Shown in pieces: positions 52,248-61,525 of a stretch of DNA of 64,000 nt. Under the pieces are notes generated by a model. That model ran no database searches. It was not told the DNA's origin and saw only the letters and a program-made list of their open reading frames with translations. Within the stretch, counting starts at the first letter, position 1, and each line of letters starts with the position of its first letter. Made by a program: the position numbers and the translations under genes. The stretch lies in the NCBI RefSeq assembly GCF_027571405.1, contig NZ_CP092968.1:3432001-3496000 (forward strand), in the 5' to 3' direction. Source of the stretch: Methylocystis parvus OBBP. Its GTDB lineage: Bacteria > Pseudomonadota > Alphaproteobacteria > Rhizobiales > Beijerinckiaceae.

Positions 52248-54544
<2,297 letters not shown>

Positions 54545-54687: not shown

Positions 54688-55332
54688 TCACACCGCCTTC
54701 GACCCCGGCGTATCGCCCTTCTGATAGGCCGTGCCAAACACATAATCCCACCAGATGGCGTGGACGCCGAAACCCTTCTCCGCGTCGCGGAAATGGTGGA
54801 GCATGTGGAGCCGCTTCACCATCTTGCCGAGGTCGGAGGTCGGCTGGCCGTGATGCGTCCAGTAATGCACGCCGTCATAGATCACATAGCCGGCCATGAA
54901 GCCCGCCAGCACCGCCCAACCAAAGGTCGCGCCGAAGATGAGGCGAATGATCGTCAGCGCGATCAGCATGATCGGCGCCGACAGCAGCGGCGGCATGACG
55001 AGCCGCAGCGGATCGTTGGGATAGATGTGATGCACGCCGTGGATCAGGAACTGAAAGCGCGGGCCGAGGCCGAAGGGCAGCGGAAACACCGTGTGGAACA
55101 GATAGCGGTGCCCGAAATATTCCGTGAGCGTCCAGCCGACATAGCCGATGACGAGGCCGAGGAGCAGCAGGCCGAGGCCGACTTCCGACAGCGAGTAGAA
55201 GGCAAGGCCCAGAATGATCGGCGTATAGACGACGACCGGCGTGAGGTGATGCACGCGCGAAAGCTTGTCGAGAAGATCGTTCTCGAAAAGGCGCGGCGAG
55301 GCGTCGAGCGCTTCGGTTCTTTCCTGCGACAT
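54688..55332 (-). CDS. fatty acid hydroxylase, FA2H/Scs7-like (candidate ceramide hydroxylase)
   Basis: A 214-residue integral membrane di-iron enzyme. Histidine motifs are H75xxxxH80 (HRYLFH), H98xxHH (HGVHH), H156xxxHH (HYWTHH) and H176xxHH (HMLHH). The C-terminal HHFRDAEKGFGVHAIWWDYVFGT closely follows the HHYKNYELGFG...WDKVFGT region of yeast Scs7 and FA2H, which 2-hydroxylate the N-acyl chain of ceramides. It lacks their N-terminal cytochrome b5 domain. The start at 55332 sits 4 bases after the desaturase stop, so the two are one transcription unit. Sterol or carotenoid hydroxylases share the fold and are the alternatives. Confidence 0.75.
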   Translation of the reverse strand: MSQERTEALDASPRLFENDLLDKLSRVHHLTPVVVYTPIILGLAFYSLSEVGLGLLLLGLVIGYVGWTLTEYFGHRYLFHTVFPLPFGLGPRFQFLIHGVHHIYPNDPLRLVMPPLLSAPIMLIALTIIRLIFGATFGWAVLAGFMAGYVIYDGVHYWTHHGQPTSDLGKMVKRLHMLHHFRDAEKGFGVHAIWWDYVFGTAYQKGDTPGSKAV

Positions 55333-55336
55333 GGAT

Positions 55337-56329
55337 TTACTCCGCGGGCGCTGCGACGGGCGCGGTGCGCGCCGCTTGCGCGACGTTCTCCGAACGCGTG
55401 CCGAGCGAATAGGTCGGATCGAAGATGAAGGTGACGAGCAGCGCGAACCAGGAACGGTGGCAGCGCAGATCGTCATAGAATTCCGGCGCCATGGCTTTCA
55501 GATCGGGCAGGCGCGTCCACGGGATCTCGTGAAAATCGTGATGCTCGTTGTGATAGCCGATATTGAGCGCGACCTTGTTGAGCGGGCCGTAATAGTCGAA
55601 CGTGCCCTGGTCGGGCGCGAAGGCGAAATGCTCCTGCAGCCAGCGCGCGCTCAAGGGATGCAGGCCGCCGACCGAGAACCAGAAGGAGAAGAAGAGATAG
55701 AGCAGGGCGTTCGGGCCGAAGGCCCAGAGCACGAAAAGATCGAAAGCGGCGATCACGGCGATGTTGATATAGGTCCATTTGCCCATGATCGGCACCGTGC
55801 CCTTCAGCCGCGACAGGCGCGCGAGCTGGATGGCGGGAAAGCCGAAGAGCCACACGGCCTTGCGCCACCCGCTATTGCCGACCCACTCCACTTCCCACCG
55901 GCTCGGAACGTCGGCGTCATAGTCATAGGCCGAGAGATGCGAGTGGTGCTTGATGTGGTAGCAGCGGAAGCCCATCGCGGTGGGGAAGGCGTTGGGGAGA
56001 TCCGCCAGAATCGCCGTCCATTTATTGGCGAGCGGGCTTTCGAAGACGCAATTGTGAATCGCGTCGTGGATGATGACGAAATTGGCGTGATTGGCGAAAG
56101 CGCCCACGCAGATGGCGAGGATGAGCGACAGCCACCAATAAGAGAGGCCGAGCCAGCCCATCCATGCGGCGATGAGGAGCTGGCCGACAAAGATGCCGGC
56201 GGTGATCTTGAAAGTCACCGGGTCTCTGCCGAAGAGGTCGCGCACCTGCGGATATTTTTCGAGGATCAGTCGGCGCCGCTCGACATGCGAGCGATCCGCG
56301 CCCTGGGCGGTGACCGAAATGCCGTTCAT
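55337..56329 (-). CDS. dihydroceramide delta-4 desaturase-like (DEGS1-type) fatty acid desaturase
   Basis: A 330-residue membrane desaturase. The three histidine boxes are HDAIH (88-92), HIKHH (125-129) and HNEHH (260-264), spaced almost exactly as I recall them in human DEGS1 (89-93, 128-132, 259-263). Shared segments include ERRRLILEKYP near the N-terminus, GLHPLSARWLQEH, YYGPLN and GYHNEHHDF. DEGS1 puts the 4,5-trans double bond into dihydroceramide. Its start lies 25 bases from a MITE-like element that separates it from the GNAT gene, and the hydroxylase follows directly. A generic acyl-lipid desaturase is the alternative, but the GYHNEHHDF and HVERRR context argues for sphingolipid type. 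Confidence 0.8.
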   Translation of the reverse strand: MNGISVTAQGADRSHVERRRLILEKYPQVRDLFGRDPVTFKITAGIFVGQLLIAAWMGWLGLSYWWLSLILAICVGAFANHANFVIIHDAIHNCVFESPLANKWTAILADLPNAFPTAMGFRCYHIKHHSHLSAYDYDADVPSRWEVEWVGNSGWRKAVWLFGFPAIQLARLSRLKGTVPIMGKWTYINIAVIAAFDLFVLWAFGPNALLYLFFSFWFSVGGLHPLSARWLQEHFAFAPDQGTFDYYGPLNKVALNIGYHNEHHDFHEIPWTRLPDLKAMAPEFYDDLRCHRSWFALLVTFIFDPTYSLGTRSENVAQAARTAPVAAPAE

Positions 56330-56354
56330 GGCCTTTGCTTCCTTCCGGTTGGAG

Positions 56355-56554
56355 GGTGGTCGGGTCGAAGGCGCTCTGGCGTCGTTGCCTCAAATACCTC
56401 CCCTTTACGGGGAGGTCGGCGGCCAAAGGCCGCCGGGTGGGGTCTCCGCCGCAGCGGCGGCGGCGCGGCTTTACCCCACCCGACCCCGCTTATGCGGGGC
56501 CACCCTCCCCGTAAAGGGGAGGGATTGGATCACGGCCCAGCCTTCATGCGATTG
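56355..56554 (+). mobile_element. MITE-like element copy B (200 bp, diverged ends)
   Basis: The core (ATACCTCCCCTTTACGGGGA...GTAAAGGGGAGGGATTGG) matches copies A and C. Its flanks are recognisable but degenerate: TGGTCGGGTCGAA against CAATCGGGTGAAC on the left, and TTCATGCGATTG against TTCATCCGATTG on the right. Total length is 200 bases, equal to the other copies within 4. It sits between the GNAT gene and the desaturase gene. Confidence 0.7.
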
Positions 56555-56568
56555 CTCCGAGCTTGCAC

Positions 56569-57708
56569 TCAACCAAAACGCTTCTCGTAAATGCGGTGAA
56601 CCTTGTCGATCTTGCCGCCGAACATCTCGATCGGCTTGCGCATGGCGAGATTGTCTTCGAGCACCCAGCCGGCTTCGAAAGCGTCGATCGTCGCGCCCTT
56701 GCCGCGGCGGCGCATCTCCTCGACCATCGAGAAGAAGACGACGCCGCCCGTCGCGCTGTTCTGCAGCTTCTTGCGCGTGCCGAGCAGCACGATGCGGGCG
56801 CTCTTGAATTTGTGGCTCTTCATGCGCGCGATGAGCTTGAGCGGGCCGAAAAAGCCCAGTCTTCCGTCGAAATCGGTGATGATCTCGAAGAGATTGGGCA
56901 AAGCGACGACGAAACTTTGCGGTTTGCCGTCAAGCTCCGCGACGATGCCGAATTCAGGCGGCATCACCAAATTGAGCGCGTCGGCCATGGAGTCGAATTC
57001 GGCCTTGGTGAAGGGCACATATGCCCAATTGCCGCTCCACGCGTCGTTGAACAGCTCCTCCATCAACGCCGTCTCGCCGCTTTTGAGCTTCGATTTGTCG
57101 ATCGGGCGCAGATTCAACCGCTCACGCCATTCCTTGCGGGTCGAGATACGCGGCTTTTCGTCAAGATCGAAATCCCCCATCGAGAAACGGTAGGAAATCA
57201 GATCCTTGGCTTTTTCATAACCTAGCGCTTCGAGATGACGCGAGAGATAGGGCGGATGCCAGGGCATCAAGAACATGGGCGTCGCGTCGAAGCCTTCGAT
57301 CAATACGCCGCATTCATGGTTGACGGTCGGCGAGAAGGGGCCGTTGATCCGCGTCGCGCCTTTTTCCTTCAGCCAGGCTTCCGCGGCTTGCGTCAGGGCG
57401 CGCACGACTTCGATATCGTCCACGGCGTCGAGCGCGCCGAATTGCGCCGGGCTCGCGCCGACCGGCGTCACATCCTTATAGACATGGGCGCAAATGCGCC
57501 CGACCCATTCGCCGTCCCGCCGCGCCAGAAACTTCTGATCCTCGACGAGCTTGTAATGCGGGTTGAGCATATGGGCGAAAGTCGTCCAGCGCTCAATGTC
57601 GAGCGGCGGCGCGAAGCCCGTCGCGCCCTTGTAGAGAAGGCGCGGCAGCTTGCAGAAGGTCGTAAAGCGCGACAGCCCTGCGACCGGTACGATCTCGATT
57701 CGCGCCAT
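56569..57708 (-). CDS. GNAT-fold acyltransferase, candidate bacterial ceramide synthase
   Basis: A 379-residue protein starting MARIEIVPVAGLSRFTTFCKLP. The fold is GNAT-like: the N-terminal lobe has the WVGRICAHV strand, the middle has GATRINGPFSPTVNHECGVLIEGF, and the C-terminal lobe has the VFFSMVEEMRRRGKGATIDAFEAGWVLEDN acyl-CoA-site-like segment. Its size and position next to a serine-palmitoyltransferase-like gene match the Caulobacter ceramide N-acyltransferase (bCerS, CC_1154/CCNA_01212), which N-acylates the long-chain base. The open frame back to 57819 is not used. The link to bCerS is from memory of the family and context; a soluble acetyltransferase is the alternative. Confidence 0.7.
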   Translation of the reverse strand: MARIEIVPVAGLSRFTTFCKLPRLLYKGATGFAPPLDIERWTTFAHMLNPHYKLVEDQKFLARRDGEWVGRICAHVYKDVTPVGASPAQFGALDAVDDIEVVRALTQAAEAWLKEKGATRINGPFSPTVNHECGVLIEGFDATPMFLMPWHPPYLSRHLEALGYEKAKDLISYRFSMGDFDLDEKPRISTRKEWRERLNLRPIDKSKLKSGETALMEELFNDAWSGNWAYVPFTKAEFDSMADALNLVMPPEFGIVAELDGKPQSFVVALPNLFEIITDFDGRLGFFGPLKLIARMKSHKFKSARIVLLGTRKKLQNSATGGVVFFSMVEEMRRRGKGATIDAFEAGWVLEDNLAMRKPIEMFGGKIDKVHRIYEKRFG

Positions 57709-57801
57709 GCTCAAATCCTTAAGCCTCCGGAGAGGCCATGCGAAAGCGTCATGATGACGCGGCCTATCGAGCCGCAGCCCTGCACGAGCGTCCCGGCTCC
57801 C

Positions 57802-57999
57802 CAATCGGGCGAACAACAATCTTGGACGTTAGCCGCCCCATACCTCCCCTTTACGGGGAGGTCGGCGGTCGAAGACCGCCGGGTGGGGCGCGCGCCGCAA
57901 TAAATTTGGTGGGGGTTTAATCCCACCCGGCCCTGCTCCACAGGGCCACCCTCCCCGTAAAGGGGAGGGATTGGCTCATGCCCAGCGTTCGCCCGATTG
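57802..57999 (+). mobile_element. MITE-like element copy C (198 bp, intact inverted termini)
   Basis: The ends CAATCGGGCGAAC and GTTCGCCCGATTG are perfect 13-base inverted repeats. The interior has the same ordered segments as copy A: GGACGTTAGCCGCCC, CCTCCCC-TTTA-CGGGGAGG, CGGCGGTC-GAA-GACCGCCG, GGTGGGG/CCCACC and CCCTCCCC-GTAA-AGGGGAGGG, then GGCTCATGC. It codes for nothing. Together with the next repeat it fills most of the 434-base gap between the serine-palmitoyltransferase-like gene and the GNAT gene; the remaining bases (57709-57801) show nothing distinctive. Confidence 0.85.
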
Positions 58000-58007
58000 T
58001 CCTCTCT

Positions 58008-58080
58008 GTCATTGCGAGGAGCGTAGCGACGAAGCAATCCAGCAGCGACCTGGATTGCTTCGCTTCGCTCGCAATGACGG
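58008..58080 (+). repeat. GTCATTGCGAG-family palindromic repeat
   Basis: The left arm GTCATTGCGAGGAGCGTAGC...GAAGCAATCCAG and right arm CTGGATTGCTTCGCTTCGCT...GCAATGAC enclose a 7-base centre. The arms mismatch at a few positions. It is adjacent to MITE copy C and about 60 bases after the end of the serine-palmitoyltransferase-like gene. Confidence 0.8.
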
Positions 58081-58142
58081 GCGGCCGCGATTACCATGTG
58101 CATCAATGCGCTATTCTCATGCGCCTCTGTTTCCTCTGACGA

Positions 58143-59387
58143 TCAGGCCGCAGCGCCGGCCATGGCGGCGGCCACGATGCGCTGCGCCTCCTCCGAGACA
58201 GGCGGCATGTCGCGCAACGCCTGTATGACGCCGCGAATTTCCGCCTCGGTGTGATTCGCCGAGAAGAAGAAGCGCAGGCGGGGGCCGTCCTTCGGAACGC
58301 CGATGCGCACCACGGGCGGCACGTAATAGCCCTTTTCGAGCAGATGCCGCGCGGCCCACATGGTCTCGAGATCGCTCTCGAAGAGGATGGGCACGACGCC
58401 GCGGCCGATGGCGGGGCCGGTGGAGAAGCCGTTTTCATGCGCGACCTGACGGAACAGCTCCGCGTTCTGTGCGAGCTTGCCGATGCGCCAGGTCTCTTCC
58501 TGCATGAGCTGGAGCGCGGTGCGCGCCGCCGCGAGAATGACGGGCGAAAAGCCCACGCTGTAAACGAAGCCCGGCAGCGTGAAGCGGAACCACTCGATCA
58601 CTTCCTTGCTGGCGCAGATATAGCCGCCGCAGGAGGCCAGCGATTTCGACAGCGTGCCGATGATGAGGTCGATGCGCCGCGGATCGACGCCCTGATGCTC
58701 GGCGAGGCCTCGGCCCGTCGCGCCCAGCACGCCCAGCGAATGGGCTTCGTCGACCATCAGCCAGATCTTGTATTTGTCCTTGATTTCACAGAGACGCGGC
58801 AGATCGGCCGTGTCGCCGTCCATGCTGTAGACGCCTTCGACCACGACGAGGACGTTGCGATATTCCTCCCGGTGCCGGGCGAGCAGATGGTCAAGATGGT
58901 CCATGTCGTTATGGCGGAACTTGATGACATGGGCCGGCGCGCCCTCGGCGCCGTAGACGATCGAGTTGTGCGCGAGTTCGTCGATGAAAATGGCGTCGCG
59001 CTTGCCGTTCATCAGATAGGAAATGGTGGTGACGTTGGAGAGATAGCCGGAGACGAGCGCCAGCGCGCTCTCCATGCCGATGAATTTGGCGATCTCCGCC
59101 TCGAACTGCGTGTGCGTCGTGCGCTCGCCGCCGACGAGCCGCGACGCCAGCGCCCCGACGCCGAGCCCGTCGACCTCGCGCTTGGCCTCCTCGCGGATGC
59201 GCGGATGGTTGGCGAGGCCGAGATAGTCATAATTGGCGAAGCTGACGAAATGCACGCCCTGCGCCTCGAAATCCGCCTTGAGCTTGTCGATCTGGGCGAA
59301 GAAGGGGTTGCTGAATTCGAGAAGGGCGTTGCCGGCGAAGCGGAATCTCCGCGAGGCGTAGTCCGGGAGGCTTCTGTGTCTCGTCAC
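58143..59387 (-). CDS. spt: serine palmitoyltransferase-like alpha-oxoamine synthase
   Basis: A 414-residue PLP enzyme of the alpha-oxoamine synthase family. Motifs are FANYDYLGLANHPR (~50-63), His140 in DELAHNS (cofactor stacking), DEAHSLG (213-219, Asp for the PLP nitrogen) and the Schiff-base Lys248 in GTLSKSLASCGGYI. That last motif, with the neighbouring ceramide-synthase-like, desaturase and hydroxylase genes, points to serine palmitoyltransferase, which condenses serine with an acyl thioester to 3-ketodihydrosphingosine. It lacks the membrane anchor of eukaryotic enzymes, as do soluble bacterial SPTs. 5-aminolevulinate synthase, KBL and BioF are the family alternatives; context disfavours them. 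Confidence 0.8.
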   Translation of the reverse strand: MTRHRSLPDYASRRFRFAGNALLEFSNPFFAQIDKLKADFEAQGVHFVSFANYDYLGLANHPRIREEAKREVDGLGVGALASRLVGGERTTHTQFEAEIAKFIGMESALALVSGYLSNVTTISYLMNGKRDAIFIDELAHNSIVYGAEGAPAHVIKFRHNDMDHLDHLLARHREEYRNVLVVVEGVYSMDGDTADLPRLCEIKDKYKIWLMVDEAHSLGVLGATGRGLAEHQGVDPRRIDLIIGTLSKSLASCGGYICASKEVIEWFRFTLPGFVYSVGFSPVILAAARTALQLMQEETWRIGKLAQNAELFRQVAHENGFSTGPAIGRGVVPILFESDLETMWAARHLLEKGYYVPPVVRIGVPKDGPRLRFFFSANHTEAEIRGVIQALRDMPPVSEEAQRIVAAAMAGAAA

Positions 59388-59590
59388 TGAATTCGCTGTC
59401 CCTAAAGGCCGGGGCGCGCCGCGCGCACTTGGTTCACGAAGAATCAGGGCGCCGTTGCGGCGCCCGAGGAGTGATCGCGTCCCTTATCATCCCGAGCCCC
59501 TGCGCGCCAGTGCGCCCATGCCCGCGGCGGGCGGGCGCGGCCTCGCGCCGCTATGGCGCTTCCGCCCGGCATTCTTTATTGGCTAGCGCC

Positions 59591-60253
59591 ATGGAAGAGA
59601 CGCCGCATCGACCCCATGCCGACCTTCGTTCCGCTCTGCGGCTGCGGGTGGAGAATCTCGCCGTCGCGCGCGGCGGCCGGCCGGTGCTGCAGAGTGTGGG
59701 CTTTACCGTTTCCGGCGGCGAGGCGCTGGTGGTGACGGGCCGCAACGGCGCCGGAAAATCGACCCTGCTGCGCGCTATTGCGGGGCTCCTGCCCCACGCC
59801 GAGGGGCGGATCGCGCTGGAGGGCGCGGGCGAGGAGGCGGAGCCGCCTCAATATGCGCATTACCTCGCCCATGCGGACGGCATGAAGGCGGCGCTCACCG
59901 TCGAAGAGAATCTCGACTTCTGGTCGGGATATCTCGCCCGCGAGCCCGACGGCCGCAGCCGCTCCGTCCCGGACGCTTTGGCGGTCGTCGGCCTCGGCCA
60001 TGCGCTGCTCGCGCCTTTCGGAGCCCTGTCGGCGGGGCAGAAGCGCCGCGCCGCCCTGGCGCGGCTGCTCGTCGCCTTCCGGCCCATCTGGCTCCTCGAC
60101 GAGCCCCTCACCGCTCTCGACAAGGCCTCCCGCGGCAAATTCGCGGCGGCGATGCGGGATCATTGCGCTCTCGGCGGGATCGTCGTCGCCGCGACGCATG
60201 AGCCGCTGGGCCTGGAAGAAGCCGCGGAGCTGGCCTTGGGAGGCGCGAGATGA
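59591..60253 (+). CDS. ccmA: heme exporter ATP-binding protein CcmA
   Basis: A 220-residue ABC ATPase. Walker A is GRNGAGKST, the signature region LSAGQKRRAALARLL and Walker B IWLLDEPLTALD. With CcmB and CcmC it powers release of holo-CcmE in cytochrome c maturation. The ATG at 59591 begins shortly before the conserved VENLAVARGG; the open frame starts at 59429. ccmB overlaps its end by 4 bases. Confidence 0.92.
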   Translation: MEETPHRPHADLRSALRLRVENLAVARGGRPVLQSVGFTVSGGEALVVTGRNGAGKSTLLRAIAGLLPHAEGRIALEGAGEEAEPPQYAHYLAHADGMKAALTVEENLDFWSGYLAREPDGRSRSVPDALAVVGLGHALLAPFGALSAGQKRRAALARLLVAFRPIWLLDEPLTALDKASRGKFAAAMRDHCALGGIVVAATHEPLGLEEAAELALGGAR

Positions 60254-60921
60254 GTTCGCCGCTGGCGGCGCTTTTTCTGCGCGAATGGCGCATCGCCCGC
60301 CGCGTCGGCGGCTCGGGCGCCATGGGCGTGGTGTTTTTCCTCACCCTCGTGACCATCGTGCCCTTCGCGGTGGGGCCGGACCCCAACCTGTTGGGGCGCA
60401 TCGGGCCGGCGATCCTGTGGATCGCGGCGCTGCTCGCGAGCCTCCTCGCTTTCGACCGGCTGTTCCAGGCCGACGCCGAGGACGGCTCGCTCGATCTGCT
60501 GCATCTCTCGCAGACTCCCCTGGAGCTGGCGGTGCTGGTCAAATGCGCGGCCCATTGGGCGGCGACCGGCCTGCCGCTCATCCTCGCCGCGCCTTTTCTG
60601 GGGCTGATGCTGCAGCAGGAGACGATGGCGCTCGTCGGCGTCGTCGCGACGCTTCTCGTCGGCACGCCGGCTCTGACCCTCATCGGCGCCATCGGCGCGG
60701 CGGCGACGGTGACCGTGCGGCGCGGCGGCCTGCTCATGGCGCTCCTTGTCCTGCCGCTGACGATCCCCGTGCTGATCTTCGGCGTCTCGGCGTCGCAGGC
60801 GGCGACGGGCGGAACGGTGCCGTTTTTGTCGCCCTTCTCGATCCTCTGCGCCATCACGCTGGTCGCGCTGGCGCTCTGTCCCTTCGCGGCGGCGGCGGCG
60901 CTGCGGCATTTAGGGGAGTAG
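60250..60921 (+). CDS. ccmB: heme exporter permease CcmB
   Basis: A 223-residue six-helix membrane protein. LAALFLREWRIARRVGGSGAMGVVFFLTLVTIVPFAVGPD is the standard CcmB N-terminus, and DRLFQADAEDGSLDLL is the conserved loop. It is coupled to ccmA by ATGA. ccmC, ccmD and ccmG, which usually follow, are absent. Instead the next genes, convergent, are a DUF5615/DUF433 module, so the system I genes are scattered (ccmAB here, ccmIEFH at 26-30 kb). Confidence 0.93.
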   Translation: MSSPLAALFLREWRIARRVGGSGAMGVVFFLTLVTIVPFAVGPDPNLLGRIGPAILWIAALLASLLAFDRLFQADAEDGSLDLLHLSQTPLELAVLVKCAAHWAATGLPLILAAPFLGLMLQQETMALVGVVATLLVGTPALTLIGAIGAAATVTVRRGGLLMALLVLPLTIPVLIFGVSASQAATGGTVPFLSPFSILCAITLVALALCPFAAAAALRHLGE

Positions 60922-60923
60922 GG

Positions 60924-61286
60924 TTAGCTGCGTTCTCGGATACGCACGCGACCCGGTTCGACGATCCAGAGCTCACGATCGATAGGCCGAACGCGTAACA
61001 GCGCCGCCAATTCGGTCATTCGCGCAGTAATCGCCTGCGGTGTGAGACGTCCGGGGCTTTCCAAAATCACGATTCCGGCCACGGCTTCCGGCGGGAAGCG
61101 CAGCACATGCCCGAAATCGTGATCGAGCGTAACGAGGACGCGGTCTTCATCGCGGCATACCCGGTAAAGCAAATCGTCTGGCGACCCGCTAAGCTTTTGT
61201 TCCGCCACGGTCATTACGTCATGGCCATCGGCTTCCAATACGCTTTTCCCGAGCGAGCCTATGTTTTCGTCGAGCTTGAATTTCAT
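60924..61286 (-). CDS. DUF5615 family PIN-like protein (putative toxin)
   Basis: A 120-residue protein. FKLDENIG at the N-terminus and RVLVTLDHDFGHVLRFPP supply the acidic residues of a PIN-like nuclease (Asp-Glu-Asn, Asp-His-Asp). IVILESPGRLTPQAI and LWIVEPGRVRIRER complete the DUF5615 pattern. Such proteins pair with DUF433 partners as putative type II toxin-antitoxin systems. Its start overlaps the DUF433 stop by 4 bases. Confidence 0.85.
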   Translation of the reverse strand: MKFKLDENIGSLGKSVLEADGHDVMTVAEQKLSGSPDDLLYRVCRDEDRVLVTLDHDFGHVLRFPPEAVAGIVILESPGRLTPQAITARMTELAALLRVRPIDRELWIVEPGRVRIRERS

Positions 61287-61525
61287 TCCGCCGCCGAAAG
61301 CGGAACCGGGATAATCTTTTCACGCGCCATCTCCGCGCCGTAAGCGAGCGCCGCGCGCACGTCGTCCACCGTCAATTCCGGATAGTGAGATAGAATATCC
61401 GCAACGCTCTCGCCGTTCGCCAGGAAGTCAAGGATCAAAGAGACCCAGATGCGCGTCCCCCTGATGCGTGGTTTTCCACCGCATATATTTGGATCGATCG
61501 ATATGCGCTCGAGAGGATGTGTCAT
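61283..61525 (-). CDS. DUF433 family protein (putative antitoxin)
   Basis: An 80-residue protein. RISIDPNICGGKPRIRGTRIWVSLILDFLANGESVADILSHYPELTVDDVRAAL is a canonical DUF433 helix-turn-helix-like domain. It is cotranscribed with and precedes the DUF5615 gene. No Shine-Dalgarno is obvious before the ATG at 61525. Confidence 0.88.
   Translation of the reverse strand: MTHPLERISIDPNICGGKPRIRGTRIWVSLILDFLANGESVADILSHYPELTVDDVRAALAYGAEMAREKIIPVPLSAAE

Follow-up and report, generated by a model that had tools for sequence, protein, structure and literature searches.

A probable sphingolipid operon with DEGS- and FA2H-type enzymes, and a second locus, in a type II methanotroph

Four leftward open reading frames (ORFs) at 54688-59387 of the 64,000-nucleotide stretch analysed here (the window), from the 4.53 Mb, 3-contig genome of the type II methanotroph Methylocystis parvus OBBP, encode a pyridoxal phosphate (PLP) enzyme resembling serine palmitoyltransferase (SPT), a GNAT-like protein, a desaturase (DES) and a hydroxylase (HYD). 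Judged by protein families and gene order, these genes are likely to form a dedicated sphingolipid operon, accompanied by a second locus elsewhere in the genome. The four-gene cluster itself is confirmed and not a product of chance, as the genus and the family preserve its sequence and gene order, and as all four families are found clustered once more in a different phylum. The analysis covered protein families, gene order, the co-occurrence of operon and second locus, the conserved histidines and the PLP lysine; from these we infer the reactions, the order of the steps and the head group of an end product that would be a Δ4-unsaturated, 2-hydroxylated and probably glycosylated ceramide. A sequence-only reading of the window had described four leftward genes, all of which lie where it placed them, as candidate sphingolipid genes with DEGS- and FA2H-type enzymes, set against the known ceramide pathway of Caulobacter. 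That proposal is partly supported: its core came through the two sequence tests that it named, with weak deep forks in the tree of the PLP enzyme, but beyond bCerS (the GNAT-type ceramide synthase) the pathway is not Caulobacter-like. The picture that emerges is a conserved two-part system of predicted sphingolipid function, close to the earlier idea, built on another SPT lineage and equipped with a candidate reductase, acyl carrier protein (ACP) and glycosylation module.

The proteins of the operon

The desaturase, P0003, matches FA_desaturase (PF00487, 82.9 bits) and the short N-terminal domain Lipid_DES (PF08557, 35.6 bits, cut-off 23), as do all 49 sequences of the alignment that includes it. 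Across these 49, seven of the eight histidines in the three histidine boxes are invariant and the eighth is nearly so, in agreement with the DEGS1-like boxes claimed from the letters alone. P0003 is 34% identical to human DEGS1 over 309 columns, nearly end to end (with a DEGS1 sequence entered by hand), and shares its Lipid_DES domain and histidine boxes; unlike the eukaryotic enzyme, it is bacterial, sits in an operon with the SPT and ceramide synthase (bCerS) genes, and has a predicted activity. The source genome holds three FA_desaturase proteins and a single Lipid_DES match, and among 289 sampled genomes of the class the domain was found only in the source genome itself; none of 14 control genomes carried it. 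In the desaturase tree the genome's two other desaturases separate from P0003 at 97/94, on very long branches (4.1 for human DEGS1, 10 for the two paralogues), because of which the place of DEGS1 within the tree was not used. The grouping with ordinary acyl-lipid desaturases that had been named as a refuting outcome was therefore not found, and such an enzyme is ruled out for P0003 by the Lipid_DES domain together with the tree. A relative of 51% identity occurs in another family of the order (G055). At L029 (9296-10288), from another family of the order, the 50-51% relative is flanked by an efflux pump and an acyl-CoA-dehydrogenase-like ORF (both named by eye), and the stretch holds no SPT, GNAT or HYD match.

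The hydroxylase ORF extends over 54688-55476, so that its start overlaps the desaturase by 140 nt. An in-frame ATG just past the desaturase stop, at 55332, fits the 215-218 aa ORFs of orthologues (L037, L038, L045, L047, L058), several of which begin right after that stop, and a product of 214 aa therefore appears likelier than one of 262 aa. PF04116 (FA_hydroxylase, 58 bits) was the only Pfam domain found, and two Scs7 sequences are the only PDB relatives at E <= 0.01 (E 7e-25). Eleven histidines of the four motifs are identical between the hydroxylase and Scs7 in the PDB-match alignment, and the RLVMPP and GFGV...WD.VFGT stretches of Scs7 are present besides these motifs. The tree groups the protein with Scs7, apart from three in-genome paralogues at 100/99, which bears out the Scs7/FA2H signature noted earlier. 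Unlike Scs7, the operon enzyme is short (probably 214 aa), aligns to the catalytic part only and is linked to the DES and SPT genes.

P0001, the PLP enzyme, has the serine palmitoyltransferases 3a2b and 8guh as its top PDB matches (E 9e-63). Its PLP lysine is residue 248, within GTLSKS, exactly as proposed for the α-oxoamine synthase (AONS) motifs; K248, DELAHNS and VDEAHS align with known AONS enzymes, and both the PLP lysine and the stacking histidine expected of AONS/SPT sequences are present. In the AONS tree P0001 groups with an SPT from an Acidisoma plasmid (100/99) and then with L114 (100/98), outside BioF and its in-genome relative (96/92); the forks between SPT lineages and KBL are weak. 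Nor does it group with E. coli KBL or BioF or with the genome's two other AONS, as the earlier refuting test asked, the deep forks again being weak. Those two (L002, L008) also speak against P0001 being a plain BioF or ALAS: L008 joins E. coli BioF and L002 looks ALAS-like by alignment. The Roseomonas, E. coli and Pseudomonas clusters described below have SPTs that join Sphingobacterium SPT (94/95), apart from P0001, with weak forks between lineages, and verrucomicrobial SPTs, 33-38% identical to P0001, form a separate lineage. These comparisons assign the predicted SPT to a lineage other than the Caulobacter-type SPT, one whose plasmid relatives include capsule-lipid loci pairing polyketide synthase (PKS) and AONS genes. 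The best relative among plasmid records is that of Acidisoma (53% identity), the next ones listed being at 40-44%; three inspected at 42-43% have type I PKS genes or large genes of a similar kind as neighbours, along with capsule/polysaccharide-export genes, and a short-chain dehydrogenase/reductase (SDR) adjoins two of the three.

P0002 itself matches no Pfam or NCBIfam model. A verrucomicrobial relative in L110, 31% identical, matches Acetyltransf_1 (PF00583, 41.4 bits, cut-off 20.7), so that of the GNAT-fold protein of 379 residues described previously the length holds directly and the family by way of this relative. Over 99% of its length P0002 is 37-39% identical to proteins in Roseomonas marmotae (38.7%), E. 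coli and Pseudomonas veronii records. In the first two, the neighbouring genes encode an SPT, an ACP, a reductase of epimerase type and a fatty acyl-AMP ligase. Ceramide synthesis in Caulobacter has been described from the same kind of gene setting (PMC11324152, PMC9386255, PMC11087976). The P. veronii relative adjoins an AONS gene, most partners there being annotated 'hypothetical'. On full-length homology to the GNAT proteins of these SPT clusters, P0002 is assigned to the bCerS family.

Beyond bCerS the analogy with Caulobacter fails. The reductase and ligase of that pathway were sought with the Roseomonas proteins, which are annotated by product only and are called CerR and AasR here by analogy. 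No CerR orthologue was found in the source genome (best own match E 3.6e-7, 31%), nor a stand-alone AasR (best own match E 2.4e-84, 35%, in a 1001-aa frame; others partial), and the window's ORF list contains no short ACP ORF beside spt. Of the reductase, ACP and ligase said to be absent from the window, candidates for the first two, an SDR and an ACP, lie 53 kb away, and a stand-alone AasR was not among the matches in the genome. Like a Caulobacter-type cluster (spt, acpR, cerR, aasR, bCerS), the operon combines an SPT-family enzyme with a GNAT-type bCerS; it differs in having no CerR or stand-alone AasR orthologue, in its SPT lineage, in the added DEGS and FA2H genes and in having glycosyltransferases at a second locus. 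CerR-like partial matches (31-37%, E 1e-20 to 1e-22) occur in four related genomes; those of Methylosinus, Methylocapsa and Methylocella (L125, L127, L128) lie in ORFs of 335-338 aa, and none that strong was seen in the source genome.

Conservation of the cluster and the second locus

At least 548 desaturase relatives in named genomes were confirmed, and the best 80 of these loci were searched with all four operon proteins: 37 of Beijerinckiaceae type (L037-L073) and 43 others (L074-L116). The 80 begin with Methylocystis, Methylosinus, Methylocapsa, Methylocella, Methylovirgula, Rhodoblastus and Beijerinckia, many as metagenome assemblies. Identity is 89-92% at loci named Methylocystis, and the desaturase is present in 36 of 37 genomes of the same-genus set, source genome included. 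SPT, bCerS and DES stand together in 35 of the 37 Beijerinckiaceae-type loci (SPT being cut by the contig end in L052); the two exceptions, L051 and L069, start inside or at DES and are cut by contig ends. HYD lies near DES in 22 of the 37, on the opposite strand in L057. M. sporium (Methylosinus) carries operon genes.

Twenty-nine of the other 43 loci, all metagenome assemblies, are labelled Verrucomicrobiota (or its classes or genera) or, once, Acidobacteria. All four families are clustered in 17 of them. The remaining 12 comprise 11 loci truncated by a contig end and L113, in which HYD was not matched. No other finding argues as strongly for joint action of the four predicted enzymes as this clustering outside the first phylum. 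In the four loci read for gene order (L077, L095, L098 and L110; by Pfam for L110 only) it is DES-HYD-SPT-CDP-alcohol transferase-GNAT, with an NTP transferase and an SDR near the cluster in L110 (Pfam) and L077 (by eye). In L110 (13080-17943) the neighbours of DES-HYD-SPT-GNAT include a pair of CDP-alcohol phosphatidyltransferases besides the NTP transferase and the SDR, which suggests that the verrucomicrobial version could install a phospho head group. The 'Acidobacteria' label of L098 is possibly due to mis-binning, as this locus is very close to L110 in the trees. Thirteen Bacteroidota loci showed only DES in the stretch, and L114 showed SPT and DES.

The Acidisoma plasmid locus (L119, 7089-11134) carries an SPT, an SDR, a bCerS and an FA2H-like gene, without a desaturase. 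It resembles the operon in its SPT (53% identical), bCerS (37%), an FA_hydroxylase of the Scs7 group and the adjacent SDR; it differs in lacking DES, and of the second-locus module only the SDR was matched in the stretch. No DES was found on plasmid records at E <= 1e-5.

Starting from the SDR adjacent to the Acidisoma SPT, a related SDR was located in the source genome at G000:C1:3546464. It lies in a second locus (about C1:3543898-3549715) encoding an ACP, a ketoacyl synthase (KAS), a dehydratase-like protein, MaoC, the SDR and glycosyltransferases of families GT21 and GT2; all were assigned by Pfam except the dehydratase-like protein, which has no Pfam match. This locus is 53 kb from the SPT gene start (C1:3491387) and 48 kb outside the window. 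The starts of DES and GT2 are 61 kb apart in the source genome and 46-80 kb apart in four other genomes of the genus. Ceramide glucosyltransferase is the only PDB match of the GT21 at E <= 0.1 (26qf, E 1.1e-33), an entry that we take to be the human enzyme. An identity of GT21 as the hopanoid enzyme HpnI was also weighed; neither of the two better GT21 in the genome reaches the HpnI cut-off of 310 bits (172.7 and 159 bits), which leaves HpnI a less likely candidate without deciding the matter. The GT2 resembles the model of a cellulose-synthase catalytic subunit, far under its cut-off. The ACP is 25-31% identical to those of the E. coli and Pseudomonas clusters (E ~3e-4) and showed no match to the Roseomonas ACP.

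Linkage of this module, whole or up to a contig end, to DES was seen within the same stretch in 12 of the 37 Beijerinckiaceae-type loci (L052, L053, L055, L060, L061, L064-L067, L069, L070, L073), DES being the only operon gene seen in L069. Co-occurrence was scored in 149 genomes of the family (completeness set at >=90%), with DES taken at E <= 1e-20 and GT2, the only module marker, at E <= 1e-60. DES was found in 36, GT2 in 35 and both in 35, so that GT2 without DES was seen in none (0 of the 113 lacking DES). The one DES-bearing genome without the module GT2, G491, is divergent (DES 54%, bCerS relative 32%). bCerS of at least 54% identity occurs in exactly the same 35 genomes, 12 more, G491 among them, having relatives of only 25-40%. 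DES and GT2 start 1-5 kb apart in 11 of the 35 (16 of the distances calculated, the others read off the match positions). Fisher's p of 2.5e-33 for this co-occurrence is overstated because the genomes are related, the 36 falling in 10 of 41 genera. Across the readable modules GT21 and HYD go together: GT21 is present in those with HYD (L052, L053, L055, Methylosinus (L167) and the source genome) and was not found in nine other linked modules, in Methylocella (L168) or in Methylocapsa palsarum (L170), in none of which HYD was found next to DES. M. acidiphila (L057) has its GT21 gene flanked by those for DES and HYD.

Predicted pathway and alternatives

In the pathway we propose, the SPT would condense serine and a long-chain acyl group in activated form into a 3-keto base, which a reductase, most likely the second-locus SDR, would convert to the dihydro base. 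The GNAT enzyme would then attach the second acyl chain. Two modifications would follow: desaturation at the 4,5 position by the DEGS-family enzyme, and hydroxylation of the amide-linked chain at C-2 by the one resembling FA2H. From the second locus, the ACP with the ketosynthase and dehydratases may serve for the chains, and the two glycosyltransferases, one of them GT21, for the head group. A cytosolic SDR would place reduction before acylation, as in eukaryotes, so that dihydroceramide would be available to a desaturase on the cytosolic side. In Caulobacter, according to one group, acylation comes first and the reduction takes place afterwards in the periplasm (PMC11087976). More widely, we regard it as possible, somewhat short of probable, that Beijerinckiaceae and type II methanotrophs make cerebroside-like glycosphingolipids by a route that repeats almost all of the eukaryotic one (SPT, SDR-type reductase, ceramide synthase, Δ4-desaturase, FA2H, ceramide glucosyltransferase). 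Udaeobacter-type Verrucomicrobiota would then use a cluster sharing the desaturase, hydroxylase, SPT and acyltransferase families but with phospho-head-group enzymes, and in soils and wetlands 4,5-unsaturated, 2-hydroxy ceramides would be no signature of eukaryotes.

Several observations weigh against this pathway. P0001 scores below every NCBIfam SPT equivalog cut-off (290.7, 284.5 and 202.2 bits against 500, 640 and 670), and its highest-scoring model is bioF (337.3 bits, cut-off 426.45). The second locus is unlinked to the operon in the source genome. Family matches of its SDR are generic, and another SDR, at C1:3401872 and 50% identical to it, is a second reductase candidate; the SDR at G000:C1:3546464 was preferred because it sits inside the conserved module. 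Among known enzymes the second-locus GT21 is closest to ceramide glucosyltransferase (UGCG, GT21) through its match to PDB 26qf, but a stand-alone paralogue (G000:C1:1912184-1913293, L172) matches ceramide glucosyltransferase better (E 3.8e-40), so that the assignment is to a family and not to a reaction or an acceptor. The GT21 could be an enzyme for glucosyl-diacylglycerol of the kind known from Methylosinus trichosporium OB3b, whose glucosyltransferase was left unassigned by the authors (PMC9239053). The OB3b lipidome comprised only phosphatidylglycerol, phosphatidylethanolamine and its monomethyl and dimethyl forms at 4 mM phosphate; under low phosphate it also contained ornithine lipids and the glucosyl and glucuronosyl forms of diacylglycerol. 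Judging from its available text, that survey does not appear aimed at ceramides (PMC9239053). Functional FA2H-like enzymes have been reported from myxobacteria (PMC10002949), and the FA2H-like part alone is therefore not new. An AasR-like ligase domain is present in the 1001-aa frame mentioned above, and one or two in-frame stops interrupt 7 of the 36 DES and 7 of the 35 GT2 matches. We found no report of a sphingolipid from methanotroph genera in the open-access literature.

Some eukaryotic DEGS members are bifunctional, and this favours an alternative that we consider unlikely, in which ceramides are made and the DEGS-family enzyme is a hydroxylase, acting at C4 of the base or on the acyl chain and yielding phytoceramide-like or polyhydroxylated lipids. 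Membership of a desaturase family does not prove desaturation, since hydroxylation of the amide-linked acyl group of ceramide in Caulobacter has been reported to depend on CC_0202, which belongs to the DesA family of desaturases/hydroxylases (PMC11324152). The Caulobacter vibrioides control genome, however, has no Lipid_DES match, which puts CC_0202 outside the DEGS family by that test, and the operon already contains an FA2H-type hydroxylase. Quite improbable, in our view, is a product that serves as the lipid anchor of a surface polysaccharide, for which an AONS and an SDR would cooperate, as they do in capsule loci, before the GT2 extends the product. The three inspected plasmid SPT relatives near PKS, capsule and export genes, two of them with an SDR, fit such an anchor, as do the likeness of GT2 to the cellulose-synthase model and the lack of a sphingolipid in the available text of the lipid-extract survey of Methylosinus (PMC9239053). 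A single operon holding bCerS, DES and FA2H genes is, by contrast, what one would expect for ceramides, and none of the three was among the annotated genes of those capsule loci; the families conserved beside the present cluster, annotated in part, may include capsule-export genes.

That no SPT model cut-off is reached, and that we met no characterised member of this SPT lineage, could also mean that the PLP enzyme uses an amino acid other than serine (glycine or alanine, for example) and leads to deoxy-type or other amide lipids. We give this as little credence as the polysaccharide anchor: the best PDB matches are SPTs, with which the active-site motifs are shared, and in the systems known so far the substrates of DEGS-type desaturation are bases hydroxylated at C1. 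The idea that the neighbours do not form one pathway, and that desaturase and hydroxylase act on ordinary acyl lipids, is strongly disfavoured and hardly credible. It could appeal to the wide upstream gaps in the source genome, 434 nt between SPT and bCerS and 239 nt between bCerS and DES, and to the 15 of 37 loci in which HYD was not found beside DES. Yet the gaps contain repeats and are tight in a sister species, Methylocystis sp. B8 (L037), in which the SPT-bCerS gap is 58 nt and the ORFs of bCerS and DES share 4 nt; co-occurrence is nearly perfect, and the same four families cluster in another phylum.

To our knowledge, characterised bacterial ceramide pathways yield dihydroceramides. Unsaturated long-chain bases may have been described from Aureispira (Bacteroidota), and no such paper was found in the open-access literature. 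A search of that literature for bacterial gene clusters that include a Δ4-desaturase of DEGS type likewise gave none. Neither a bacterial Δ4-desaturase cluster nor a methanotroph sphingolipid figures in the available text of PMC12322946, PMC11765627 and PMC5037126. Ceramides of varied unsaturation in the Black Sea have been ascribed to bacteria, with no desaturase named in the available main text (PMC11334938), and in fluids from serpentinite a correlation was seen between single-hexose ceramides and several groups, Verrucomicrobiota being one of them (PMC10667739). Bacterial ceramides that are unsaturated or glycosylated are therefore not new in themselves.

If the proposed sphingolipid pathway is correct, it offers a testable new bacterial lipid pathway in which ceramides receive a double bond and a hydroxyl, the decorations also added by animals, plants and fungi, together with genes to test for unsaturated bacterial ceramides. 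An SPT lineage that has neither CerR nor a stand-alone AasR would gain a candidate for its reductase and one for its glycosylation module, and the origin of DEGS and FA2H a bacterial relative that bears on it. It also suggests a membrane lipid so far unseen in methane oxidisers. Surveys of lipids that read 4,5-unsaturated or 2-hydroxy ceramides as eukaryotic would then need caution.

Features of the operon and its surroundings

The coordinates of the operon features are collected in the table. The palindromic repeat is about 145 nt long and present in two copies, one in each wide operon gap.

Table. Genes and intergenic repeats of the predicted operon (window positions)
Feature	Position	Strand	Evidence
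SPT-like α-oxoamine synthase P0001, 414 aa, first operon gene	58143..59387	-	PF00155, 169 bits; PDB SPT matches
Intergenic gap SPT-bCerS with palindromic repeat	57709..58142 (repeat 57840-57983)	.	direct repeats D2/D3 and inverted repeats
Predicted GNAT-type N-acyltransferase, bCerS/YghO family, P0002, 379 aa from ATG	56569..57708	-	37-39% identity to SPT-cluster proteins
Intergenic gap bCerS-DES with second copy of the same palindromic repeat	56330..56568 (repeat 56394-56537)	.	repeat analysis
DEGS-family sphingolipid desaturase (predicted) P0003, 330 aa	55337..56329	-	PF08557 Lipid_DES and PF00487
FA2H/Scs7-type fatty-acid (ceramide) 2-hydroxylase (predicted), probable 214 aa	54688..55332 (ORF can start 55476)	-	PF04116; Scs7 PDB matches

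A second repeat family, with a core of 31-32 nt in direct and inverted copies, occurs at 52248-52405, upstream of ligA, and at 58050-58080, in the SPT-bCerS gap. Divergent from the operon, the haem-exporter genes ccmA and ccmB lie at 59429-60921; they are followed at 60924-61525 by a DUF5615 (PIN-like) and DUF433 pair that resembles a small toxin-antitoxin module.

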